From Paucibacter sp. TC2R-5 (lineage in GTDB: Bacteria; Pseudomonadota; Gammaproteobacteria; Burkholderiales; Burkholderiaceae_C), in the NCBI RefSeq assembly GCF_025717605.1, contig NZ_JAJIRQ010000007.1:186001-250000 (forward strand): a stretch of DNA of 64,000 nucleotides. Reading direction: 5' to 3'. The notes under the pieces were generated by a model. That model did not search any database and was not told the DNA's origin. It was given only the letters and a program-made list of their open reading frames with translations. Shown in pieces: positions 2,260 through 57,643 of this stretch; position 1 is the first letter of the stretch, and the number at the start of each line of letters is the position of its first letter. The translations under genes were made by a program, and so were the position numbers.

Positions 2260-3033
2260 TCAAGGAGGGCTCGTCATCTTTTCCGCCTCAAGCCAATAAC
2301 GCTCAAACAAGCCTTCCGCCTTCATCTGTTTCAAGGTGGCGGCAAATACCGGTACCAGGGCCGCGTGCCGCTTGTGCAGATAGGGGCTCAGCGCAACCTT
2401 GCCGCCGAGGTCAAACAATTTGTGCGGCTGCAAGCCCTTGCGACCGGCCTCCGCCTTCAAGGCATTCAGCATGCCAGTGCTGGAATCGCAAAAGAAGTCC
2501 GCATGGCCGATGGCGAGCATGCCCAGGCCGTTCTTGGCCGCCGGCACCGCCGTCAGCCGATTCGGCGCGAACATCGGTTGCAACACGTTCTCGCAGCCGA
2601 TGACGCCGCGCGTGTAGGCGCCCTGCAAATTGCCCTTATCGCGCAGGTCTTCGATGCGGCCGATGCCCGGCATGGGCTTGGCCGTGTAAATGCTGAAGGT
2701 CGCCTCCATCAGCATCACGTCCACCAGCAGCATTTCCGGATGTGCGGCGCCGTAGGCCGGCGCGCGGGAGAGTTCACCGTCAATGGCGCCCTGCTCGGCC
2801 ATCAAACTGATACGTTTGAGCGGCGCCTGCGTAAACTCCATTGGCACTTGCATGCGTCGAAACGCTTCCCTATGGATCATGCGGGTCCAGCTGCCGATAT
2901 AGCTGCTCTCGTCGGAGTTGGCCCCCATGATCAAGGGTGCGGCGGGCTTCGAGTTGGCCGCAGGTGCAAAAACCGGCAGCAAGGCCAAAGACAGGCAGTG
3001 CAGGCAGCGGCTCAAAAAGCGAAGACGGGCCAT
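2260..3033 (-). CDS. Periplasmic amino-acid-type substrate-binding protein (PBPb), copy 2 of a tandem pair
   Basis: I prefer the ATG at 3033 (257 residues, MARLRFLSRC) over the upstream ATG at 3069. It gives a clean signal peptide ending near APAANS and starts four bases after the stop of the upstream paralog. The mature part has the fold of SBP_bac_3/PBPb proteins, as in ABC-transporter binding proteins and signalling sensor domains. Conserved points include PLKRISLM, IDGELSRAPAYG and two cysteines (GCENVLQP and FFCDSS) that may form a disulfide. It is strongly similar along its length to the protein encoded just upstream. No permease or ATPase lies nearby, so a stand-alone sensing or scavenging role is possible. 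The ligand cannot be told from sequence. Confidence 0.8.
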   Translation of the reverse strand: MARLRFLSRCLHCLSLALLPVFAPAANSKPAAPLIMGANSDESSYIGSWTRMIHREAFRRMQVPMEFTQAPLKRISLMAEQGAIDGELSRAPAYGAAHPEMLLVDVMLMEATFSIYTAKPMPGIGRIEDLRDKGNLQGAYTRGVIGCENVLQPMFAPNRLTAVPAAKNGLGMLAIGHADFFCDSSTGMLNALKAEAGRKGLQPHKLFDLGGKVALSPYLHKRHAALVPVFAATLKQMKAEGLFERYWLEAEKMTSPP

Positions 3034-3037
3034 CGCC

Positions 3038-3829
3038 TCAGTTGCCCATGGTTTGCTTCTCGGCTTCAAGCCAGTATTTCTCGAACAGCCCTTCCTCTTT
3101 CATCTGCTTCAAGGTGGCGGCCAAGATAGGCACCAGCGCCGCATGTTTTTTTTGCACATAGGCGCGCAGCGGCACCTTGGGGCCCAGATCAAACAATTTA
3201 TAGGGTTGCGGCGCTTTGCGAGCCTCGGCCGAATTCAGTATGTTCATCATGCTCGAGCTGACATCGCAATAAAAGTCCGCGTGGCCAACCGCCAGCATCG
3301 CAAGCCCATTCTTGGCCGAAGCCACCGCGGTCAGCCGGCCAGCCGGAAACAGCGGCTGCAACACGTTTTCACAGCCGAGCGCGCCGCGCGCATACGTGCC
3401 CCTCAGCTTGCTGTCACGCAGGTCTTCAATGCTCGCCAGGCCCGGCATCGGCTTGGCCGCGTAAATGCTGAACACCACATCCATCAGCGGGAAGTCCACC
3501 ACCAGCATCTCCGGGTGGGCCGCGCCATAGGCGGGGGCCCGGCCCGGTTCCCCATCGATCAGGCCCTGCTCCGACATCATGGTGATGCGCTTGAGCGGCG
3601 CCACCGTGAACTTCAAAGGCACATGCATGCGCCGAAACGCTTCCTGGTGAATCATGGTCTGCCAGAGCGCCACATAGTTTGTGTTGTCCGCACTGGCCCC
3701 CATCACGAACACCGCCGGCGGCTCTGCCCTGGCCGGCGTGGCACCCGATGCCAGCAGCATCAGACACAAGCCCCGCGCCAAGGGGCGGCGCCAGAGGGGT
3801 TGCAAAAACCAGAATGCCGTCATGGCCAT
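3038..3829 (-). CDS. Periplasmic amino-acid-type substrate-binding protein (PBPb), copy 1 of a tandem pair
   Basis: The frame is open to 3910, but the signal peptide (RGLCLMLLASGATPARA) fits a start at 3829 (263 residues) or 3823 (261). It is the closest relative of the gene immediately downstream. Shared blocks include EAFRRM, PLKRI, APAYGAAHPEML, AKPMPG, GCENVLQP and KKHAALVPILAATLKQMK. The last ends in the same C-terminal pattern (EGLFE/RYWLEAEK). The family binds small polar solutes in a two-lobed periplasmic fold. The two genes are nearly contiguous and form a transcription unit created by tandem duplication. Function beyond binding is not known. Confidence 0.8.
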   Translation of the reverse strand: MAMTAFWFLQPLWRRPLARGLCLMLLASGATPARAEPPAVFVMGASADNTNYVALWQTMIHQEAFRRMHVPLKFTVAPLKRITMMSEQGLIDGEPGRAPAYGAAHPEMLVVDFPLMDVVFSIYAAKPMPGLASIEDLRDSKLRGTYARGALGCENVLQPLFPAGRLTAVASAKNGLAMLAVGHADFYCDVSSSMMNILNSAEARKAPQPYKLFDLGPKVPLRAYVQKKHAALVPILAATLKQMKEEGLFEKYWLEAEKQTMGN

Positions 3830-3920
3830 GATCCTAAAGGCAAACGCAGCGCATGGTGGTCTGTTTAAGCCGCCCACGCCGTGGCAATCACCCGCGACAT
3901 TGCCGCGCAATCACTTGGAC

Positions 3921-5728: not shown

Positions 5729-6424
5729 ATGAAGAAGACGTCCGCCACAGTGGCATTGCGATTTCTACGGCTCGTGCTCCTGCTGCTGTGCCTGAGCCCT
5801 ATTCAAGCGGCGCAGGCCTGCTCCTGCCCCGTTCCGAGGCAGAACCCGGACGAAGGCTTCGAGAAAATAAGTATGGTCTTCAGCGGCAAGCTGATCTCCA
5901 CCCGTCGTGTTGAGGGCTGGACGGGCACCCAAATTCGAAGTCGCTGGTTGGTGACGCAATCGATCAAGGGCCTGGCCTTGACCGAGGTGGAGATCGACTC
6001 ACCACCGGACAGCGCCCAATGCGGGCTGCCAGATCTGCGCATCGGCATGCACGTCACCCTCGCTGCGCGGGGCTCGCTGCGCCAAGGCTTCCGCAGCGAT
6101 TCTTGCACCTGGAACCAGATTTACTGGCCCCGGCTGACCCGCTACCAGGCCGAGCGCCAAGAACTGCAAACACAGCTGCAGAACAATCCAGAAAATACCA
6201 CCGCGCTGATGGCGCAGGGGGAGCTGTTTCTGAGCGCGGGCGAGTTTGATGACGCGATCAAGAGTTTCACGGCGCTGTTAAAACTGGCGCCCGATATGAA
6301 CGAAGCACGCCTGGGTCGGGCAAAAGCGCTCAGGGCCGTCGGCGCGGCAGAAGCCGCCCGCTTGGATGAAGTGGCGGAGAAGGCCAAGCAGGACCAAGTT
6401 CGGCCGACCAGCGGCAAAAATTGA
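5729..6424 (+). CDS. Exported protein with TIMP-like N-terminal module and TPR-like tail
   Basis: 231 residues. A signal peptide (hydrophobic RLVLLLLCLSPIQA) would be cleaved at AQA/C, making a cysteine the first mature residue in a CSC motif (Cys31, Cys33). Two further cysteines occur at 98 and 126. The spacing (31-98, 33-126) is close to the C1-C70 and C3-C99 disulfides of tissue inhibitors of metalloproteases (TIMP/netrin-like fold). The motif VFSGKLISTRR fits the first strands. Residues about 135-215 form helical TPR-like repeats. The site is not a good lipobox (AQAC), so a free N-terminal cysteine is plausible. The next gene encodes a larger relative. Function is unknown; metalloprotease inhibition is only a structural analogy. 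Confidence 0.7.
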   Translation: MKKTSATVALRFLRLVLLLLCLSPIQAAQACSCPVPRQNPDEGFEKISMVFSGKLISTRRVEGWTGTQIRSRWLVTQSIKGLALTEVEIDSPPDSAQCGLPDLRIGMHVTLAARGSLRQGFRSDSCTWNQIYWPRLTRYQAERQELQTQLQNNPENTTALMAQGELFLSAGEFDDAIKSFTALLKLAPDMNEARLGRAKALRAVGAAEAARLDEVAEKAKQDQVRPTSGKN

Positions 6425-6567
6425 ACTGCCGCACGCGCAGCCAAGTAGCGTCGCAGGTTTAGCCCGTAGGACTTGCAGTATCGAAAATCAGCACTCGGGC
6501 GACGGCGTGCAAAAAGCCCGGCGTTTTGCTTTAGCATCCGCCCGCACAAAGTCCGGAGCGCCGCAGA
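6425..6567. other. Intergenic gap between the two TIMP-like genes
   Basis: 143 bases without a convincing gene. Near 6507-6534 a short inverted repeat (GCAAAA...TTTTGC around a GC-rich loop) could be a weak terminator or attenuator, but it lacks a clear U-tract. A second promoter for the downstream gene may lie here; none is obvious. Confidence 0.3.
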
Positions 6568-8457
6568 ATGTCCCCATCCACGTCCCGCCCAAGCTTAGGG
6601 CCGCCCTGTTGGCTGATGACCCTAGGCCTGCTATTGATTGCCCTGCATGGCCAGGCCCAAGCCTGTCTTTGCATCAGCGAAAGCAGCTCCGAACAGCATT
6701 TTCTTGACGCCAGCCTGTTGTTTCGCGGCGAGCTGATCTCGCTGCGCCGACTCAGCGAGGCCGAGCGCGGGCGAGATCACAATCGACCGCTGCGGGGGCG
6801 CTATCGCCTGCTGGAATCCTTCAAAGGGCCGACGGATCAGACCATCATCGAGGTGGACAGCCCGGCCGACAGCTGTGGCTTCAACGACCGCGTCGGCGCA
6901 ATCCGGCTGATGGTCGCTAAGGGAGACGCCAGCGCCGGCTACACCAGTGATCTTTGCCACTTCGCCCCCGACCCCGCGTCGATGCAGCTTCAGCAGCGCA
7001 AGCGGGCCGAAATGGACTTGCTGCTGCAGCAGCACCCCGGCGACATACAAAGCCATTCAGCACGCGCCCGCTATTTTCTCGAATCCCATGCCTTCGAGCA
7101 GGCCATCACGGCCTATCAGGCCTTACTGAAGCTCTGGCCGAGCGATACCAAAGCCTTGCTGGCGCTGGCACAGGCGCAGATGGGCCTGCATCGCTATGAG
7201 GCGGCCCTGGCCGGATTCGACACCTTGCTGGCCATGCAAGCGGAGCAAGCCCATGCCATGCGGGGGCGGCAAGACGCCTTGATGCGCTTGAATCGCCATG
7301 CCGAACTGGCTCGTCCGGGGCTCGATTTACGCGGCTACCGGGCCGGGCCGAGTGAGCAAGGCAACTTCGCCGATGCCAATCTGCAAGGCGCCCAGTTCCA
7401 GAATGCGCAACTGAACGGCTTTGACTTCAGTCGCGCCGACCTGCGCGAGAGCGATTTTCGCGGAGCCAAGCTGGATAGGGCCAACTTCAGTGCGGCCCGC
7501 TTGGACCGCGCACGTTTTGGCGTCGACACCCAGCTCGGCGCCGAAGCCCGCACGACCTTGGTGGGTGCCGATTTCAGCGACACCGTGCTGCATGGCGCCA
7601 ACTTTTCCAACGTCGACCTGGCCGGCGCCAAGTTCCGACAGGCCCATTTGAAGGATGTCAACTTCAGCGGATCTCGTCTGCGCGGGCTCGATTTGCAAGA
7701 TGCGCGGATCGAAAATGTCGACCTGAGTGGCCATCAATTGGATTCAGCCAAGCTGCGCGGCGCCGTGTTCGTCAACAGCTCGCTGCGCGGCGCGAGTTTT
7801 TCCGACCCCTCGCCCTATATGCAGGGCAATTTCGCTCCGATCGATTTACGCGGCACCGATCTGTCCGGCGCAGTACTGACCGACCTCATTTGGGTCCCGG
7901 CCTTGATCGATTGCCGCACCGTCATGCCGGCCGGCACGGACTGGACCAAGCTGCCGCTGCTGCCGCTCTGGGTCAACTGCCCTGGCCGCCCACCCGTCAC
8001 GGCCTTGAGTGCCGGCTACCCGTTCAAGCCGACCCCGCACTCCAAAAGTATTTGGGGCTACGAGTCGGGCCAAGGCTTCCGTCTGCACGGCATCGATGGT
8101 CGCGGCAGCCAGATGCAAGACATGAATCTGGAAGGCTATTCCATCTCTGACGGGCGCTTCGAAGGCAGCAATTTCAACCGGGCCAAGCTGCAGCAGTTGT
8201 GGATCAATCGTGGTTCCTTCGACGGTGCCGATTTCCGTCAGGCCGATCTGCGCAAAGCGCGTCTTTGGGCCGTCAGCCTGAAAGAGGCCGATTTCCGCGG
8301 CGCCGATCTGCGCGGCGCCTTGCTGCTGGAACTGGATCTCAGCCAGACCATGCTGCAAGGGGCCAACTTGCAAGGTGCTTGCTACGGCATCGGCACTCGC
8401 TGGCCAGCGGGCATGCAGCTCGGCAAGGCCGGTGTAACGCGCTGCCCCGCGCAATAA
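6568..8457 (+). CDS. Exported TIMP-like / TPR / pentapeptide-repeat protein
   Basis: 629 residues. A signal peptide ends GQAQA/C, so the mature protein would begin with a CLC motif (Cys33, Cys35). Partner cysteines at 103 and 130 give almost the TIMP spacing (70 and 95). Residues about 145-240 are TPR-like helices (repeated A-x-A-x-Y/F pattern). From about 250 to 410 and again about 510-605 there are pentapeptide repeats A(D/N)Lxx / A(N/D)Fxx such as ANLQGAQFQNAQLNGFDF. These form a right-handed quadrilateral beta-helix. The two helix blocks are separated by a loop with two cysteines. It is a larger relative of the preceding gene. The pentapeptide part often serves as a scaffold or DNA/protein mimic; here it should sit in the periplasm or outside. 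Function unknown. Confidence 0.75.
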   Translation: MSPSTSRPSLGPPCWLMTLGLLLIALHGQAQACLCISESSSEQHFLDASLLFRGELISLRRLSEAERGRDHNRPLRGRYRLLESFKGPTDQTIIEVDSPADSCGFNDRVGAIRLMVAKGDASAGYTSDLCHFAPDPASMQLQQRKRAEMDLLLQQHPGDIQSHSARARYFLESHAFEQAITAYQALLKLWPSDTKALLALAQAQMGLHRYEAALAGFDTLLAMQAEQAHAMRGRQDALMRLNRHAELARPGLDLRGYRAGPSEQGNFADANLQGAQFQNAQLNGFDFSRADLRESDFRGAKLDRANFSAARLDRARFGVDTQLGAEARTTLVGADFSDTVLHGANFSNVDLAGAKFRQAHLKDVNFSGSRLRGLDLQDARIENVDLSGHQLDSAKLRGAVFVNSSLRGASFSDPSPYMQGNFAPIDLRGTDLSGAVLTDLIWVPALIDCRTVMPAGTDWTKLPLLPLWVNCPGRPPVTALSAGYPFKPTPHSKSIWGYESGQGFRLHGIDGRGSQMQDMNLEGYSISDGRFEGSNFNRAKLQQLWINRGSFDGADFRQADLRKARLWAVSLKEADFRGADLRGALLLELDLSQTMLQGANLQGACYGIGTRWPAGMQLGKAGVTRCPAQ

Positions 8458-24901: not shown

Positions 24902-26197
24902 TTAGCCTTGGCGGCGACGCGCGCGCAGCGAAGCAGCTAGCAGCATCAGGCCAAGACCCAGTTGGGCATAGGTAGAAGGCTCTGGTACTGCCATAGCCAA
25001 ACCACTCATCTTGTAAATCGCAGCGGTGTCGACGCTATAGGCCTTGTCAGCAAGTGCATCGATGTTGGTATTCCAGCCCAGCGCATCAAAAGCTGCGATG
25101 TCATTGCGGCTGACGCTGCCGGCCGTGCAAGGCGACATGGTCGGATCCATGATGCCGATCGCGCGCGTGCTCTGAATACATGCGCCACCCGAATCCGGAT
25201 CAACGAACGCGACGTTGTCTTTCCAATGGGAGGCTTGTTGACCGTCGCCGGTATAACGACCCGTCGAGAAAGTGGCCGCTTCCTGATTGCTGGCATCGCC
25301 AATGCTGAAGACATTATTGCCGTCGACCGAGAAGAAGGCTGCGCGGTTGGCCGACCACTGCAGCGTTGCGTGCTTACCGTCCGGATCAAGTGCGTTGCCA
25401 TAACGGAACAGATCCAAGGTGCTGCCAATGGCCCAATCTGTAATGTTTTTGGTGCCAAAATCGCCATTTTCGAAAGCGGAGGCATAAGGCCCCTTGCCAT
25501 GTGTCACCAGGTCAAATGTATCGACACCGCTCACAAAACCCAGCGCATGACCGAGTTCGTGAACAGCCACCGAAGTAAAGTCATAGCTGCCAGCAGTAAC
25601 GCCATTCGTGGGGTCAAAGTCGAAGGCAAACTGGTTGCTGAAAGTAATGCTGGCATCGTATTTTGACAGCGGAGCGACCTTGGAAGTCAAACCCAGCGCC
25701 TTGATTACCGACTGGTTGACGTCTAGGTAATTGTTGATGTTCAGGTTGCCGCTGCGCAAGGTCGTGATGTTGTCTGCAACGCCAATTTTGTTGGCCACGT
25801 CATAGAACTGATTGGTGCGCATACTCACGCCGCCGCCCGCATTCAACTTGGACAGATTAGCCACGGCAATAGCATCCAGTGCGGTCGTTCCTGTTGCGGC
25901 CAAGCCAGCGTATACGTCAGCGGTCGAGACGACGCGGCTTTCGCTGCCAGCTTGACCCAGCACGCCGGGATTCAATGCTTTGAAGCCAATTTCGATATTG
26001 ACGGTGACGTTGTTGGTTAACGTCTGGTTCCAGTAATTGGCAGCCTTCTGGAACGCAAACAATGCTGCGGCACCATTCGGCGAGCTCGAGAAGCTGTTGC
26101 TGCTGTCAATCAACACGATGTTGGCGGCGCCAGCAGGCAACACACATGCAGCGGCGGCTGCTGCTGCCACCAAATTAAGGAAGTGAGTCTTTTTCAT
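24902..26197 (-). CDS. PEP-CTERM NF038122-type zinc metalloprotease
   Basis: 431 residues from the ATG at 26197, with a GGAG ribosome binding site eight bases upstream. The signal peptide runs to about residue 25 (alanine-rich, ending PAGAA). The extended metzincin-like motif HELGHALGFVSGVD begins at residue 213 and gives the Zn ligands H213 and H217 and the catalytic E214. The C-terminus has a VPEP motif, a hydrophobic helix (LGLGLMLLAASL) and a basic end (RARRRQG). That is a PEP-CTERM tail for XrtA-type exosortase sorting to the cell surface. The exosortase is not in this window. The layout matches NF038122-family metalloproteases. It is a single gene with its own terminator. Confidence 0.9.
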   Translation of the reverse strand: MKKTHFLNLVAAAAAAACVLPAGAANIVLIDSSNSFSSSPNGAAALFAFQKAANYWNQTLTNNVTVNIEIGFKALNPGVLGQAGSESRVVSTADVYAGLAATGTTALDAIAVANLSKLNAGGGVSMRTNQFYDVANKIGVADNITTLRSGNLNINNYLDVNQSVIKALGLTSKVAPLSKYDASITFSNQFAFDFDPTNGVTAGSYDFTSVAVHELGHALGFVSGVDTFDLVTHGKGPYASAFENGDFGTKNITDWAIGSTLDLFRYGNALDPDGKHATLQWSANRAAFFSVDGNNVFSIGDASNQEAATFSTGRYTGDGQQASHWKDNVAFVDPDSGGACIQSTRAIGIMDPTMSPCTAGSVSRNDIAAFDALGWNTNIDALADKAYSVDTAAIYKMSGLAMAVPEPSTYAQLGLGLMLLAASLRARRRQG

Positions 26198-26233
26198 GCT
26201 TTCTCCAATCCTTTGAGCTTGAGCGCCGAACAT

Positions 26234-31988: not shown

Positions 31989-34832
31989 TTATGGTTTGCA
32001 GCTGTAAACCATCACATCGTCCAGGAACCAACCGATGGCGCCGCCGCAGCCGTCGTTCGCTGCTTCAAAGCGCAGCTTGACCTTGGCGCCAGTCGTCACG
32101 CCAGACAGCGCCGAAAGGTTGACGATCGAGCGACCCCATGACCCAGCCAACTGACCGCCGTCTGTGCCCGAGAAGCCCGGCTCTCCGGCCAAGGGGCTGT
32201 CGCTGCCATCAGCCGGACTTAACATTGCGGCCATGTTGTACGGGTTGTAGATAAAGGCCGATGCGGGGACCACTGTCCATGCGCCACCATTCACGCTGTA
32301 CTTGATATTGCCGCCGTCGTAGCCGGCTTCTGTCGCTACATAGTGATCGAAGCTGAGCTTTGCACCGTTGGCAGGGACCGTCACTTCCGGGCTCTCCAGG
32401 CGCTGCAAGCCTGCCTGGTTATCGCCGACCGCACATTTACCAATGTTTGCGTCGGCAGCAAAGAGCGCAGACCCGGCGCGCCCGCCCAGCAGATTATTGA
32501 CAACCTTCCAGGTACGCGGCGTGAACTCTGGGTTGTTGCCGGCATAGCTGACCAACCAATTGGCACCGCCGCGACGGCCGCCCTCAAAGTTGTCCGACAG
32601 CAGCGAGGAAGGATTGCCGCTTGGGCACAGCGCCGGCGGTGTCTTGGCCAGCATCGGACCGTAACCGCATTGCTCAACTGGCTTACGCAACTCGACGGCC
32701 AAGGCCATCTTCTCGACTTGCGCGCAATCCGCTGCACTGATCACTTCGCCCGACACGGCGCCGGTCTTCAGGTGGTTCAGGCTCTTGCCGGTCAGGTCGC
32801 TGCACGACATCTTCAAAGCATCGGCATGGTCGGCAAAACTGCTGACCGGATTTTGATAGATGTTCTGTGCGCGGAAGTAGATATGCGCCGCCTTGGTCAG
32901 GCCGATACCGTTCACGGTTTGGCCGTTGTAAGTGCCGCCATCCACCAACAAGGCGTAGCCATGGTTTGGCACGCCGGAGTTGTTGTGCACACCGCCCCAG
33001 TCACCGGCTTGGGTGTTCGGCGCGCAAGAGTATTGAGCGTCGGAAACTTTGCCTGGGTTGCCATAGCAAGTTGGGGTGTACATATCACGCAGCGCGCCAA
33101 CCAGACCCACAGCAGTCGAGTCTTCGCCAACCAACCAGCTGACAGAGTTGTCACTGCCGGGTCCGCGGGCCAGCGTGGCGCTTACGCCATTGACCAATTG
33201 GGCTTTGATGGCCGTACCGTCGTTTTGAGACACCGTCAGCGAGGGGATCGTGATGGTGGCGTCGTCCCCGGTAAAGTTGGGAGCAACTGTGGCACCTTGG
33301 TTGTTACCAATAATGACACCGATAGCCCCTGCGTTTTGCGCATTCTTGACCTTGATGCTTGCGGCGCAGGTGCCGCGATCGATATAGGCGATCTTGCCGG
33401 TCAGTGAGCCGGCGACAAGGTCGACTCCACCAGAAAAGCCCGAACCGCATGCCGACACAATAGCATTTCCAGCATTAGCATTAACCAATCCGACTTGTAC
33501 GCCAACCACGCTACCGGGCTGATTGAACACTTGCGGGCCGAATGTCGTCGTACCAGTCAATTTGACGCCAGCAACTGCCGCCGGTGCAGCGATAGAGACT
33601 TGCGCGACCTTTGTAGAAGCCGTACAAGCTCCCGCTGTACGCGCCGAGTTTGGTGCATCGCCGCCGCGTCCATTGATGCGGTCAACCGTTTCACCCCAGA
33701 TGTCCGAATAGGCTTCATTGAGGGCGCCCGACTGATACGCGTAAATCAGCCCATGGGTGTACTGGGTATAGGCATGCGCCCACTCGTGCGCGGTCACGTC
33801 GTCGGTGGTAATCCCTGGGCAGAACGAGATCAAGGTGCCATTCCAAGAGGCGTTCGGGCACGCACCAGCACCGCCACGGTTGAACACGGCGTGCATGGTG
33901 GCGCCATTGCCGTCAAAGGAATCACGGCCGAAGGCGTTCTTGAAAAACTTGTAAGTATCCTCGGAGGCATAGATCATATTGTCGGCCTCGGTGTTCTGCG
34001 TCGGTAGTTGATCGCCCTCCTTCCAGAACGGATTGTTTGGATAGTTAGGGCCAGGCGTTGCTACACCAGCGCCGTCATAGGCGCGGCGATTCATAGCGTC
34101 GTGAATGCCGGTGATGCGCTCGACCAACTTGCCGGTGTGCGCGTCAACAAAAACGAACTCACGCACGTCCACGCCGTTGCCTACTTCAACCTGCCACACC
34201 AGGTAGTTGGCGCCAACGACACCCTTGGCCAGGCCATCGCGGAAGACCATCAGCTCCGGCTTGCCGGCGGTCAACTTCTTGCCTGCGCGCTCGGCGGAAG
34301 CAATAGCCAAGGCCGTTGCGCTGGCCTGCTTGGCTGCTTTCGTGGGTGTCACATTGAGTTCAATGCCTGGGACGAAGGTGCCATTGATGGCAGTCAAATT
34401 GTGCCCAGCGTCAAAGTGGGTCTTCAACTCGGCGCCAAAGACTGGCACGCCCTTGTAGAACTGCTTGTGGGTCAAGTGGGTGCCACCCAGACGATCGGAT
34501 TGAACGCGCGCGGCGCCCAACTCACTCGAAGCATTGCTGATGCCGAACAGGCCGGCATATTCGCTCAAGACCTGAATCGAACTGGCCTCGTTGGCGACCG
34601 GTGCGATCGCGCGCAGGCCGGAGGCGGCGCTGAGCTTGGATGCGGGCGCCACGCGGACAAACCGGGCCGCCCCAGTGGCTGTGTGAATCGCTACTTCGGT
34701 ACCGTTGCCGGTGTTGGCGGTAAGGCGAGCAATGGCTTCGTTTTGCCCCTTCAAGCTGGTTTGAGCCTGGGCGGACATGGCCATGCCGACGGCAAGCGTC
34801 ATCAGCGAAACACGGAATTTGGTTCTGGACAT
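31989..34832 (-). CDS. Secreted M4 (thermolysin-family) metalloprotease with inserted PA domain
   Basis: 947 residues from the ATG at 34832 (MSRTKFRVSL, with AAGGAAAC upstream). Order: signal peptide to about 24; FTP/PepSY propeptide (about 60-230); M4 catalytic domain with HEWAH at 349-353 and Glu373 in NEAYSD (20 residues after the second His, as in thermolysin). A protease-associated (PA) domain is inserted at about 405-565 (GSLTGKIAYIDRGTCAASIK). The M4 helical domain then resumes, with the active-site GVHNNSGVPNHGYALL. A C-terminal beta-sandwich (about 735-947) resembles immune-inhibitor-A/MAM-like modules (GWFLDDVMVYSC). It is an exported protein-degrading enzyme activated by propeptide removal. 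It is much longer than thermolysin because of the PA and C-terminal modules. Confidence 0.93.
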   Translation of the reverse strand: MSRTKFRVSLMTLAVGMAMSAQAQTSLKGQNEAIARLTANTGNGTEVAIHTATGAARFVRVAPASKLSAASGLRAIAPVANEASSIQVLSEYAGLFGISNASSELGAARVQSDRLGGTHLTHKQFYKGVPVFGAELKTHFDAGHNLTAINGTFVPGIELNVTPTKAAKQASATALAIASAERAGKKLTAGKPELMVFRDGLAKGVVGANYLVWQVEVGNGVDVREFVFVDAHTGKLVERITGIHDAMNRRAYDGAGVATPGPNYPNNPFWKEGDQLPTQNTEADNMIYASEDTYKFFKNAFGRDSFDGNGATMHAVFNRGGAGACPNASWNGTLISFCPGITTDDVTAHEWAHAYTQYTHGLIYAYQSGALNEAYSDIWGETVDRINGRGGDAPNSARTAGACTASTKVAQVSIAAPAAVAGVKLTGTTTFGPQVFNQPGSVVGVQVGLVNANAGNAIVSACGSGFSGGVDLVAGSLTGKIAYIDRGTCAASIKVKNAQNAGAIGVIIGNNQGATVAPNFTGDDATITIPSLTVSQNDGTAIKAQLVNGVSATLARGPGSDNSVSWLVGEDSTAVGLVGALRDMYTPTCYGNPGKVSDAQYSCAPNTQAGDWGGVHNNSGVPNHGYALLVDGGTYNGQTVNGIGLTKAAHIYFRAQNIYQNPVSSFADHADALKMSCSDLTGKSLNHLKTGAVSGEVISAADCAQVEKMALAVELRKPVEQCGYGPMLAKTPPALCPSGNPSSLLSDNFEGGRRGGANWLVSYAGNNPEFTPRTWKVVNNLLGGRAGSALFAADANIGKCAVGDNQAGLQRLESPEVTVPANGAKLSFDHYVATEAGYDGGNIKYSVNGGAWTVVPASAFIYNPYNMAAMLSPADGSDSPLAGEPGFSGTDGGQLAGSWGRSIVNLSALSGVTTGAKVKLRFEAANDGCGGAIGWFLDDVMVYSCKP

Positions 34833-34951
34833 AATGTTTCCTTGTACAGCATCTGTGCTGCACTTCAATGGTTGAGGGCGCAAGCGCCAATAACTACCGG
34901 GCCTAGCCCCAGACGAGGAGTACGCCTCTATCCGCTAAAGCCCGTCAACGA

Positions 34952-55429: not shown

Positions 55430-57556
55430 TTACCAAATTTTGCAGCGCTTTGAATCCGGCTTGACCATCGCCTGACCGGGCTTACAGGCAAAGGCCTTTT
55501 CGAACTCCGGCATATTCACGGCCACACCGTTGATGCGGTAGCGGCCCGGTGAATGCGGGTTGGTCAAGGCCTGCACGCGCAGCGCCTCGGGGCGAGCGTT
55601 ATTGCAGTCCCATTGCGCAAAGCCGACGAAGAAGCGCTGCTCCGGCGTCAAGCCGTCGATGGGCTGCAGGTTCTGCCCGGCCACATGTTGCTTCCACGCG
55701 GTCAGCGCCAGCACCAGGCCGCCAAGGTCGGCCAGGTCTTCACCCAGGGTCAGCTGGCTGTTGATCTTGATGTTGTCGACGATGGTGTAACCGGCATATT
55801 GCTGCGACACACAGGCGGCACGCTGCTCAAAGGCTTTGCCGTCTTTCTTCGTCCACCAGTCTTTCAAATTGCCTTTGGCGTCGAACTTGCGGCCTTCGTC
55901 ATCAAAGCCATGCACCAGCTCGTGGCCAATGGTGCCGCCGGTGTTGCCGTAGTTGGGTGCGGCATCCATCTTGGGGTCGTAGAGCGGCGGCTGAAGCACG
56001 GCGGCGGGGAAGTTGATGTCGTTCATCTGCGCGTCGTAATAGGCGTTGACGGTTTGCGGCGTCATGCCCCATTCACCCCGGTCCAGAGGCTGGCCAATCT
56101 TGGCCAGTTGCCGCTTGAATTCGAAGCTATGGCCCCGCTGCACATTGGCAATAAAGTTGCCCCGCTCAAGCGCCATGGCGCTGTAATCGCGCCAGCGTTC
56201 CGGGTAGCCGACCTTGTTGACGATGCTGCCAAGCTTGGCCAGCGCCTGCGTCTTGGTGGCCTCGCTCATCCAAGGCAGGGACTTGATGGAATCGGCCATC
56301 GCGACTTCGATCTCGGCCGTCATCTGTTGCGCTTGCTGCTTCAGCTCGGGGCTGAAGCTGCGCTGCACAAACTCCTCGCCGAGCGCCTCGCCGAGTTGCG
56401 CGTCGACCAGTTCGACACAGCGCTTCCAGCGCGGCTTGATCTGCGGCGTGCCCTGCAAGGTCTGGCCGAAGAAATCAAAATTGGCCTGCACCATCTCGGG
56501 CGCCAGATAGGCGGCGTGGCTGCTCAGTGCGGCCCAGCGCAGATAGGTCTTCAGCTCGGCCAGGCTGAGCGCTTGCAAGCGTTTGTCCATGGCCTTGAAG
56601 AAGCCCGGCTCGGTGACGTTATAGCTGGCCAGCGACTCCGGCAGACCCAGGCCGGCACGGTAAGCCGACCAGTCGAAATGCGGCGTTAGCGCTTGCAGCG
56701 CCTTGGCGTCAACCTTGTTGTAAGTCTTGTAGGGGTCGCGGCGCTGCACCTGCGTCAGCGTGGCTTGGGCCAGCGCGGTCTCGGTCGCCACAACGCTGCG
56801 AGCGGCCTTGGCTGCGGCTTGGGGCGTGTCGCCGGCCAGCTCGAAGATGCGCGCCACATGGGCCTCGAACTTCTTCAGCATGGCGCGCGATTTGGCGTCC
56901 TTGTTGACGTAGAAATCGCGGTCCGGCAGGCTCAGGCCCGCAGCCATTGCGAAGGCGATCACCTGGGTCGCGTCACCGAAGTCTTGGCCCGAGCCGAAAC
57001 GGAACAAAAAGCGCTCGTTATTGGTGGCCAGATGCAAAGCGGCCAGCAGCGCGGGCAACTGGCGCTTGTCGCTCAAGGCATCGATTTGCGCCAACAGCGG
57101 CTGCAGCGCTGCCAGGCCTTGGCTGCGGGCCGCGTCTTCGTTCATGCAGGCGGCGAAGTAGTCACCCATCTGCGCCTGCTTGGCGTTCAAAGCGGAGCGG
57201 TCCGGCGCGGTAGCCAGCTTGTCCAGAATGCCCCAGAGAAAGCGCTGATTCTCGTTCGCCATCTTGGCGTAAACCGACCAGCGCGACTGATCGGCGGGAA
57301 TCGGGTTGTTCTTGATCCAGCCGCCGCAAGCGAATTGGTAAAAGTCCTCGCAAGGGTCGACGGAGGTGTCCATCGACGGCCGGTCCAGACTCGGCGTGTA
57401 GGGCAGCGCGCTGAGGGGCTGCTCGGTCGACTGCCCAGCCAATTGATCAACAGGGGCGACTTGTGCCAGCGCGGCGGCAGCGCTGAGCAGCATCACAGCC
57501 GGGGCCAGGGCCAGGCCTTGGCCAAGATTCAAAAGGGTCGCTGAGGGCTTGCGCAT
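55430..57556 (-). CDS. Secreted M13-family (neprilysin-like) metalloprotease
   Basis: 708 residues from the ATG at 57556 (MRKPSATLLNLGQGLALAPA), with GAGAGA upstream. The signal peptide ends near AALA (residue 29). The M13 N domain begins SVDPCEDFYQFACGGWI. The catalytic domain has NYGNTGGTIGHELVHGFDDE with HELVH at 545-549 and the third Zn ligand in GEDLADLGG. The last residues RCKIW match the C-terminal CxxW of M13 proteases. Members cleave peptides up to about 40 residues in the periplasm or outside. It converges with trhO with one base between the stops. Confidence 0.94.
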   Translation of the reverse strand: MRKPSATLLNLGQGLALAPAVMLLSAAAALAQVAPVDQLAGQSTEQPLSALPYTPSLDRPSMDTSVDPCEDFYQFACGGWIKNNPIPADQSRWSVYAKMANENQRFLWGILDKLATAPDRSALNAKQAQMGDYFAACMNEDAARSQGLAALQPLLAQIDALSDKRQLPALLAALHLATNNERFLFRFGSGQDFGDATQVIAFAMAAGLSLPDRDFYVNKDAKSRAMLKKFEAHVARIFELAGDTPQAAAKAARSVVATETALAQATLTQVQRRDPYKTYNKVDAKALQALTPHFDWSAYRAGLGLPESLASYNVTEPGFFKAMDKRLQALSLAELKTYLRWAALSSHAAYLAPEMVQANFDFFGQTLQGTPQIKPRWKRCVELVDAQLGEALGEEFVQRSFSPELKQQAQQMTAEIEVAMADSIKSLPWMSEATKTQALAKLGSIVNKVGYPERWRDYSAMALERGNFIANVQRGHSFEFKRQLAKIGQPLDRGEWGMTPQTVNAYYDAQMNDINFPAAVLQPPLYDPKMDAAPNYGNTGGTIGHELVHGFDDEGRKFDAKGNLKDWWTKKDGKAFEQRAACVSQQYAGYTIVDNIKINSQLTLGEDLADLGGLVLALTAWKQHVAGQNLQPIDGLTPEQRFFVGFAQWDCNNARPEALRVQALTNPHSPGRYRINGVAVNMPEFEKAFACKPGQAMVKPDSKRCKIW

Positions 57557-57643
57557 GGGATGTCTCTCTCTCGTGAAGAGTCGGCATTCTCGCCCATGGG
57601 CAGCTCGGCAAATCAAATCAAGCTGCCCCCATTTAAAAGGGCT

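Follow-up and report, generated by a model that had tools for sequence, protein, structure and literature searches.

A TIMP-like domain at the predicted mature N-termini of two adjacent exported repeat proteins of Paucibacter sp. TC2R-5

Tissue inhibitors of metalloproteases (TIMPs, PF00965) are studied as regulators of the animal extracellular matrix. They begin with a Cys-x-Cys motif whose cysteines have partners at a characteristic spacing (residues 1, 3, 72, and 101 in TIMP-2), and the family is further characterized by a third disulfide in the N-domain and by a C-terminal domain with three disulfides. Here, we analyzed a stretch of 64,000 nucleotides from Paucibacter sp. TC2R-5 (contig NZ_JAJIRQ010000007.1, positions 186,001 to 250,000; "the window" denotes this whole stretch), in which two adjacent genes, P1 and P2, encode exported proteins with a TIMP-like domain at their predicted mature N-termini. 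Relatives of this domain occur in other bacteria, and the new observation is that in 4 of the 24 relative loci the TIMP-like gene lies directly upstream of a gene for an exported protease with the motif HELGHxLGF.

In the complex of matrix metalloprotease (MMP) 10 with TIMP-2, the available text of PMC3779175 describes that the amino group and the carbonyl of Cys1 bind the catalytic zinc, that Ser2 enters the S1' pocket, and that the connector loop, which ends at Cys72, occupies the non-primed side. A first-pass annotation of the window had attributed zinc binding in TIMPs to the free N-terminal cysteine; the ligands given in this text are the terminal amine and the carbonyl and not a free thiol (PMC3779175).

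In the open PubMed Central literature, outside of which most subscription journals lie, the matches listed contained Tim of Listeria as the sole bacterial TIMP-like protein (PMC8235301), and nothing on an architecture of tetratricopeptide repeats (TPRs) and pentapeptide repeats or on a pair with an LGF protease. According to the available text of PMC8235301, the data indicate that the secreted metzincin Mtz cleaves the TIMP-like lipoprotein Tim, releasing it. As in the genomes described below, a bacterial TIMP-like gene thus adjoins a secreted metzincin gene, and in Firmicutes related to Listeria there are tim homologues with a signal peptidase I signal, as found in P1 and P2 (PMC8235301). In contrast, the same text reports for Listeria that the protease gene comes first, that Tim is a lipoprotein and is cleaved, that its TIMP similarity comes from Phyre2 only, and that the setting is a mobile element (PMC8235301), whereas in our paired genomes the TIMP-like gene comes first, its product has a signal of the signal peptidase I type, the similarity is seen with sequence profiles, and the protease is of the LGF/PEP-CTERM type. 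The alkaline protease inhibitor of Pseudomonas is presented in that text as an endogenous inhibitor of a bacterial metzincin with a TIMP-like mode of interaction and a structure that is not similar to TIMPs (PMC8235301).

Export signals, cysteine register and relation to TIMPs

P1 (5729-6424, plus strand, 231 amino acids) and P2 (6568-8457, plus strand, 629 amino acids) were confirmed as open frames. They are adjacent, with a gap of 143 bases, and are paralogues (33% identity over 205 aligned columns, E = 3e-22). Both begin with a predicted signal peptide that ends in AQA, comprising 30 residues in P1 (5729-5818, plus strand; PIQAAQA before CSC) and 32 residues in P2 (6568-6663, plus strand; HGQAQA before CLC), with predicted signal peptidase I cuts, read by eye, before Cys31 and Cys33, respectively. 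The TIMP-like N-domains follow on the plus strand at 5819-6130 in P1, as supported by profiles against the PDB, and at 6664-6975 in P2, for which the paralogy with P1 is further evidence. The precursor cysteines 31, 33, 98, and 126 of P1 become 1, 3, 68, and 96 of the mature protein, its only four (codons starting at 5819, 5825, 6020, and 6104), and 33, 35, 103, and 130 of P2 become 1, 3, 71, and 98 of its N-domain. The later cysteines of both proteins therefore lie at the TIMP spacing of about 70 and 99 residues of the mature protein. The cysteine positions of the first-pass annotation, which had both mature proteins starting with Cys-x-Cys and paired 31/98 and 33/126 in P1 and 33/103 and 35/130 in P2, were thereby confirmed.

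Neither signal has a classical lipobox, because Gln occupies position -2. In a set of 28 proteins consisting of relatives together with P1 and P2, Cys-x-Cys stands at the predicted cleavage site, again read by eye, in 27; this count is overstated because Cys-x-Cys helped to decide which matches stayed, and it becomes 28 of 32 when the G675 protein and three dropped matches are added. G675, whose contig ends near the gene end, is outside this set, yet is counted among the 24 loci. Residue -1 is Ala in 27 of 27 proteins, A-x-A is found in 20 of these 27, and a single one (G801a) fits a lipobox.

Where cysteines have been lost, they mostly went in pairs. P2 of G836 lacks Cys1 and the cysteine aligned with its TIMP partner (70 type), and Cys3 and the fourth cysteine (99 type) are kept. 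In G1101 and G753, weak matches of the phylum search (E = 1.0e-4 and 5.6e-4; loci L109 and L110) and possibly two-cysteine relatives, the first and third cysteines (Cys1 and Cys70 types) are kept and the second and fourth are gone. To judge from these alignments, the paired losses fit the TIMP pairing 1-70 and 3-99. The G641 match has none of the four cysteines.

The N-terminal part of P1 alone had one match in the PDB (E = 1.2) and no convincing relative. A four-domain profile (A2) was built from the N-domains of P1 and P2 and those of G174 and G255, both of which have the whole architecture of P2. It gave four matches up to E = 10, all of them TIMP-2 (best 2.7e-7), and in the alignment the mature Cys fell on residue 1 of TIMP-2 with all four cysteines in register, the later two with Cys72 and Cys101. 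A profile of 15 bacterial domains (A6) ranked TIMP-2 first (1.5e-9), followed by TIMP-3 (8.8e-5) and TIMP-1 (0.03-0.5), again with TIMP residue 1 aligned to the mature Cys; TIMPs accounted for 15 of the 17 chains up to E = 10, and the two others were at 0.27 and 0.34. When every cysteine was masked, the first four of five matches were still TIMP-2 (best 8.7e-6), and the reversed profile found no TIMP in the PDB, its single match having an E-value of 0.6. A chance cysteine pattern is thus judged unlikely, as the TIMP matches persist with the cysteines masked and vanish when the profile is reversed. The TIMP-like N-terminal pattern that the first-pass annotation had noticed in both proteins therefore extends beyond the cysteines.

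Two smaller profiles weigh against this relationship. With P1 and P2 only, TIMP-2 (0.0052) stood behind two designed TIM barrels that had no self-passing stretch, and one built from only the four bare proteins encoded beside proteases reached 0.32 at best, though all four of its matches were TIMP-2. With the Pfam TIMP model, the domains of G174 and G255 (loci L014 and L015) scored 19.2 and 16.3 bits, below the gathering cut-off of 23.1, and the best single-sequence E-value among the four members of A2 was 0.0007. The same model had no match in 229 genomes; the control genomes were silent too, so that this result does not demonstrate absence. Because single sequences miss the Pfam cut-off and the small profiles are weaker, we call the domain TIMP-like, meaning related to N-TIMP on profile evidence, and refrain from assigning the proteins to PF00965. 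Homology of the N-domains of P1 and P2 to the TIMP N-domain is nevertheless very probable, judged from the larger profiles. The alignment to animal TIMPs, among which TIMP-2 is the best PDB match, covers about 100 residues from residue 1. Unlike animal TIMPs, P1 has only four cysteines followed by TPRs and thus neither the third N-domain disulfide nor the TIMP C-terminal domain, the place of which is taken by TPRs or pentapeptide repeats, and the single bacterial sequences stay below the Pfam cut-off.

Metalloproteases beside the TIMP-like gene

Besides the window's genome, at least 24 loci in 23 genomes carry the domain, which is therefore rare and scattered. We surveyed the neighbors of these 24 loci for HExxH frames within flanks of at most about 10 kb, and over much less at contig ends (the G675 contig has 3.1 kb). 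In four loci from three genera (G326, G467, G535, and G564), the TIMP-like gene lies directly upstream, on the same strand, of a gene for an exported HELGHxLGF protease. The gap ranges from 144 to about 270 bases, and the TIMP-like gene is the first of the two in all four cases. As the genes outside of the pair differ among the three genera, it is the pair and not the region that is conserved. Relative to the G535 copies, the TIMP-like partners have 54-90% identity and the proteases 65-89%.

The partner proteases have 308-325 amino acids and a VPLPA/PEP-CTERM-like tail that scores just below the cut-off. They match Peptidase_M10 with E-values of 1.2e-6 to 1.3e-4, above the cut-off in two of the four, and reach 48-51 bits with NF038122 (metallo_LGF), for which the cut-off is 80, and are thus distant relatives of that family. 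When the four partners were combined with the NF038122-type protease of the window in one profile, vertebrate collagenases were its best PDB matches, MMP-13 first (3.7e-4) and then MMP-1; of 66 matches up to E = 1, the 60 listed were MMPs, karilysin, and fragilysin/BFT, and once an entry named only metalloprotease. HELGHxLGF, and with it HExxHxxG, is present in all five aligned proteases. Downstream there are a distal His-Trp, which in the window protease stands in a different alignment column, and Met-Asp/Gly-Pro; these may represent the third ligand and the Met-turn of the partner protease, respectively.

A close homologue of the partner protease, defined as 39-100% identity over at least 135 residues, with the weaker genomes G000 and G507 not counted, was found in 8 of the 300 genomes of the order sample. 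A TIMP-like gene was present in 4 of these 8 and in 2 of the 292 others (hypergeometric 3.1e-6, with no correction for kinship). In three of the four remaining homologues, a TIMP-like gene is absent from the surrounding 1.5 kb; the fourth is truncated by the end of its contig.

In the window, three metalloproteases were found, in agreement with the first-pass annotation, which had noted several secreted ones. The NF038122 (LGF) protease with PEP-CTERM (24902-26233, minus strand) is a clear family member (NCBIfam 5.5e-81; Peptidase_M10 0.001, below the cut-off). With 30% identity to a partner protease, it is a distant relative of the TIMP-adjacent proteases and is a candidate target, located about 16 kb from P1/P2 and not adjacent to them. 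Family scans assigned the other two, an exported metalloprotease of the M4 type (31989-34883), in which a PA domain is inserted behind the HExxH region, and an M13 metalloprotease (55430-57616). The best NCBIfam matches of the M4-type protein were M36 families, far below their cut-offs. As to targets, all three types had been suggested; the NF038122 type gains indirect support as a distant relative of the protease that is TIMP-adjacent in four genomes, but nothing links the M4 and M13 proteases to P1/P2, for which no search was made beyond the family scans. Within the genus, NF038122 matches above the cut-off occur in 2 of the 4 genomes with the P1/P2 pair (G000 and G832) and in none of the 14 without it (one-sided 0.039).

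Inhibition of a protease and other possible functions

We infer a mechanism along the lines of the animal complexes. P1 and P2 would be exported via Sec, and the cut by signal peptidase I would leave the TIMP-related domain at the N-terminus. Periplasmic disulfides of the Cys1-Cys70 and Cys3-Cys99 types would hold the N-terminal segment against the connector loop, and the free alpha-amino group and the carbonyl of Cys1 would chelate the zinc in the active site of a protease of the metzincin type, with residue 2 (Ser in P1, Leu in P2) entering the S1' pocket as in MMP/TIMP complexes. The sequence of P1 retains what such a mechanism requires: it would start with Cys-Ser-Cys, its connector terminates in a Cys, and a cut by signal peptidase I would leave the amino group free. 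Exported PEP-CTERM-type HELGHxLGF (NF038122-like) proteases would be the likeliest natural targets, and the TPRs, together with the pentapeptide array of P2, would act as a scaffold or in docking and so position the inhibitor.

For P1 and P2, we rate the chances that a TIMP-like domain on TPR/pentapeptide scaffolds blocks a metzincin by N-terminal zinc chelation as about even. More tentative, and in our estimate somewhat below even, is the general proposal that bacterial TIMP-type inhibitors are genuine, with a free Cys1 made by signal peptidase I that would chelate the zinc of an exported collagenase-like protease, organized as two-gene modules in some genera and as heads on TPR/pentapeptide scaffolds in this genus. 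In sum of the sequence evidence, the TIMP relationship appears strong and an inhibitor function plausible. The inhibitor trick of TIMPs may not be confined to animals, as in a few other bacteria such a gene adjoins one for a protease that resembles the animal targets of TIMPs; if the general proposal is true, the TIMP/MMP pairing is not an animal invention. The bacterial family has the same N-terminal chemistry encoded in its sequence and is sometimes found next to a collagenase-like protease, which provides a small and testable inhibitor-protease pair outside of animals. It bears on the origin of the TIMP/NTR inhibitor and is a source of new scaffolds of a single domain for targeting zinc proteases. 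It may also reveal how the surface of bacteria is protected from their own exported proteases of the PEP-CTERM type.

Several findings weigh against inhibition by a TIMP-type domain. The Pfam TIMP model has no match to P1 or P2 singly, and AlphaFold models of both proteins, computed from two-row alignments of the window sequences only, gave predicted local distance difference test (pLDDT) values per block of 27-59 in the N-domains. The third matrixin His is missing from the partner proteases, which have Thr or Ser three residues after the Gly (HELGHVLGFGT). In 20 of the 24 loci, as well as beside P1/P2, there is no recognizable metalloprotease as immediate neighbor, and a single ancestral event may underlie all four pairs. 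None of 19 NF038122-type matches, found in 15 of 120 family genomes and including the two of the window's genome, has a TIMP-like gene within 1.5 kb; G836 and G837 have the pair and no NF038122 match, and G013 and G297 have weak NF038122 matches and no pair. G675, with three of the four cysteines before the contig end, does not fit pairwise loss. As P2 of G836 lacks Cys1, that copy cannot inhibit through Cys1, and P2 of the window has Leu at position 2.

Alternatively, the domain could be a binding module that is related to TIMP/NTR domains but inhibits no protease; as an exported OB-barrel, it would dock to a protein or glycan and present the TPR and pentapeptide repeats. The NTR domains of netrin, complement C3, and PCPE bind partners without inhibiting proteases. 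The 20 loci without a protease neighbor, the retained architecture of the G836 P2 in spite of its missing Cys1, and the fusion to repeat scaffolds would all be expected of such a module. The same holds for the variability of residue 2, for which a tally by eye gave Ser or Thr in 17 of 27 proteins and Leu, Glu, Arg, Asp, Lys, Ala, or Gln in the rest; it is Ser in P1 and in all four protease-paired proteins. However, if the barrel alone mattered, one would not expect 27 of 28 proteins to carry Cys-x-Cys precisely at the cleavage site; moreover, the two matches without Cys3 retain Cys1, and the domain stands beside matrixin-like proteases in four genomes. We regard the binding module as a real possibility that is on balance doubtful.

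It is improbable, in our view, that the bare TIMP-like proteins are partners of the LGF protease in another capacity, as substrate, chaperone, or activator. The Listeria data, which indicate cleavage and release of a TIMP-like lipoprotein by a metzincin (available text of PMC8235301), and the constant order of TIMP-like gene and protease gene in all four pairs would suit such a role; but in that text the TIMP match of Tim is by structure prediction only, and the two genes stand in the opposite order (PMC8235301), whereas the proteins analyzed here match TIMPs by sequence profile. A lipidated Cys1, which would make the pattern merely a lipoprotein cysteine with a second cysteine nearby and which the first-pass annotation had named as a finding that would refute its reading, is very unlikely: a cysteine directly after the signal also marks lipoproteins, G801a fits a lipobox, and G675, outside of that count, has Ser at -1, but 26 of 27 proteins, P1 and P2 among them, do not fit, their residue -1 is the Ala of the mostly A-x-A sites described above, and the TIMP profile matches survive cysteine masking.

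Repeat regions, relatives and further observations

In both proteins, the N-domain is joined to TPRs, and P2 continues into a pentapeptide-repeat array, as the first-pass annotation had stated and Pfam now supports. The TPR region of P1 (6143-6364, plus strand) matches TPR_16 (3.2e-11, two stretches, best at residues 162-214) and is helical in the predicted model, and that of P2 (6985-7300, plus strand) matches TPR_19 (2.6e-6, residues 171-230). The pentapeptide-repeat region of P2 (7330-8454, plus strand) matches Pentapeptide in ten stretches (2.3e-47). The Pfam scan found no family in either N-domain. In the AlphaFold models, the TPR parts were good, as were the first and last pentapeptide parts of P2 (block pLDDT 70-92, compared with 34-59 in the middle). 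Foldseek with the low-confidence P1 model listed 50 matches to TPR-type or designed helical proteins, none of them under E = 0.001.

Upstream of P1/P2 lies a gene for an RlmL/THUMP-type methyltransferase and downstream, on the opposite strand, a gene of the major facilitator superfamily. Scans for promoters and terminators detected neither sigma-70-like nor terminator-like sites on the coding strand. In all four positive genomes of the genus, two such genes stand beside the same methyltransferase gene, in the order P1-P2 in the window and P2-P1 in the three others, where the two genes are 5 bases apart in G836 and the stop codon of one overlaps the start codon of the other in G837. The P1-like gene is a bare domain in G836 and G837, and in G832 (L097, 9165-10349) it keeps the TIMP-like domain and continues without TPRs into unrelated sequence. 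The TPR of P1 is therefore peculiar to the window's genome among the four.

The ratio of nonsynonymous to synonymous substitutions (dN/dS) in the TIMP domain was 0.39 for P1 (G000 compared with G832) and 0.375 for P2 (G836 compared with G837), and a value of 0.92 for P2 (G000 compared with G832) rests on very few changes; these ratios indicate moderate constraint. Between P2 of the window's genome (6568-8457) and of G832 (L097, 10292-12181), synonymous divergence is uneven, with 0.39 in the signal, 0.027 in the TIMP domain, 0.10 in the TPRs, and 0.21 in the pentapeptide region, which suggests recombination within the gene.

The relatives come from whole-genome searches, several of which scored a part of their candidates; the counts are therefore lower bounds, and they include the window's own genome where it matched. 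The search with the N-part of P1 was positive in 4 of 299 genomes of the family, one of them spurious, and the others gave 6 of 300 in the order, 9 of 229 in the class (one dropped), 4 of 18 in the genus, and 11 of 398 in the phylum (two dropped, two already counted), with 2 of 22 in the G535 family and 1 of 10 in the G467 family. The matches in G753 and G1101 were dropped before the locus counts as they lack Cys-x-Cys, the G641 match for its missing cysteine pattern, and the G006 match because by eye it is an acyl-CoA dehydrogenase frame. A contig search with the whole of P1 gave eight matches, at least mainly in the TPR part, which were not used as relatives. Plasmids searched with the P1 domain had no relative, and phages searched with one bare relative had only a chance match (E = 0.4). 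Most relatives are bare proteins of about 130-190 amino acids, and the TPR-pentapeptide architecture was found only in this genus and in G174 and G255.

Some neighborhoods are of separate interest. In G801 (L050, 8949-10339), which has a second TIMP-like gene elsewhere, the TIMP-like gene overlaps the end of a frame that by eye is RHS-repeat-like and contains VHEGIHRS, and an HExxH protein lies about 3 kb from the G837 pair; both loci come close to having a protease neighbor. In G303 (L076, 743-1492), the gene for an LGF-type protease has upstream of it that of a second protease, likewise exported and with PEP-CTERM, which carries the full matrixin motif HELGHSLGMGH. In G1120 (L112, 6213-7211), the TIMP-like gene directly follows that of a small exported protein without a Pfam match, which has YWxCRAxxxRxC-like repeats. 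Elsewhere in the window (2260-3910, minus strand), two similar exported proteins of 269 and 290 amino acids are encoded in tandem by overlapping frames; they have no Pfam match up to E = 0.01 and by eye resemble periplasmic binding proteins.

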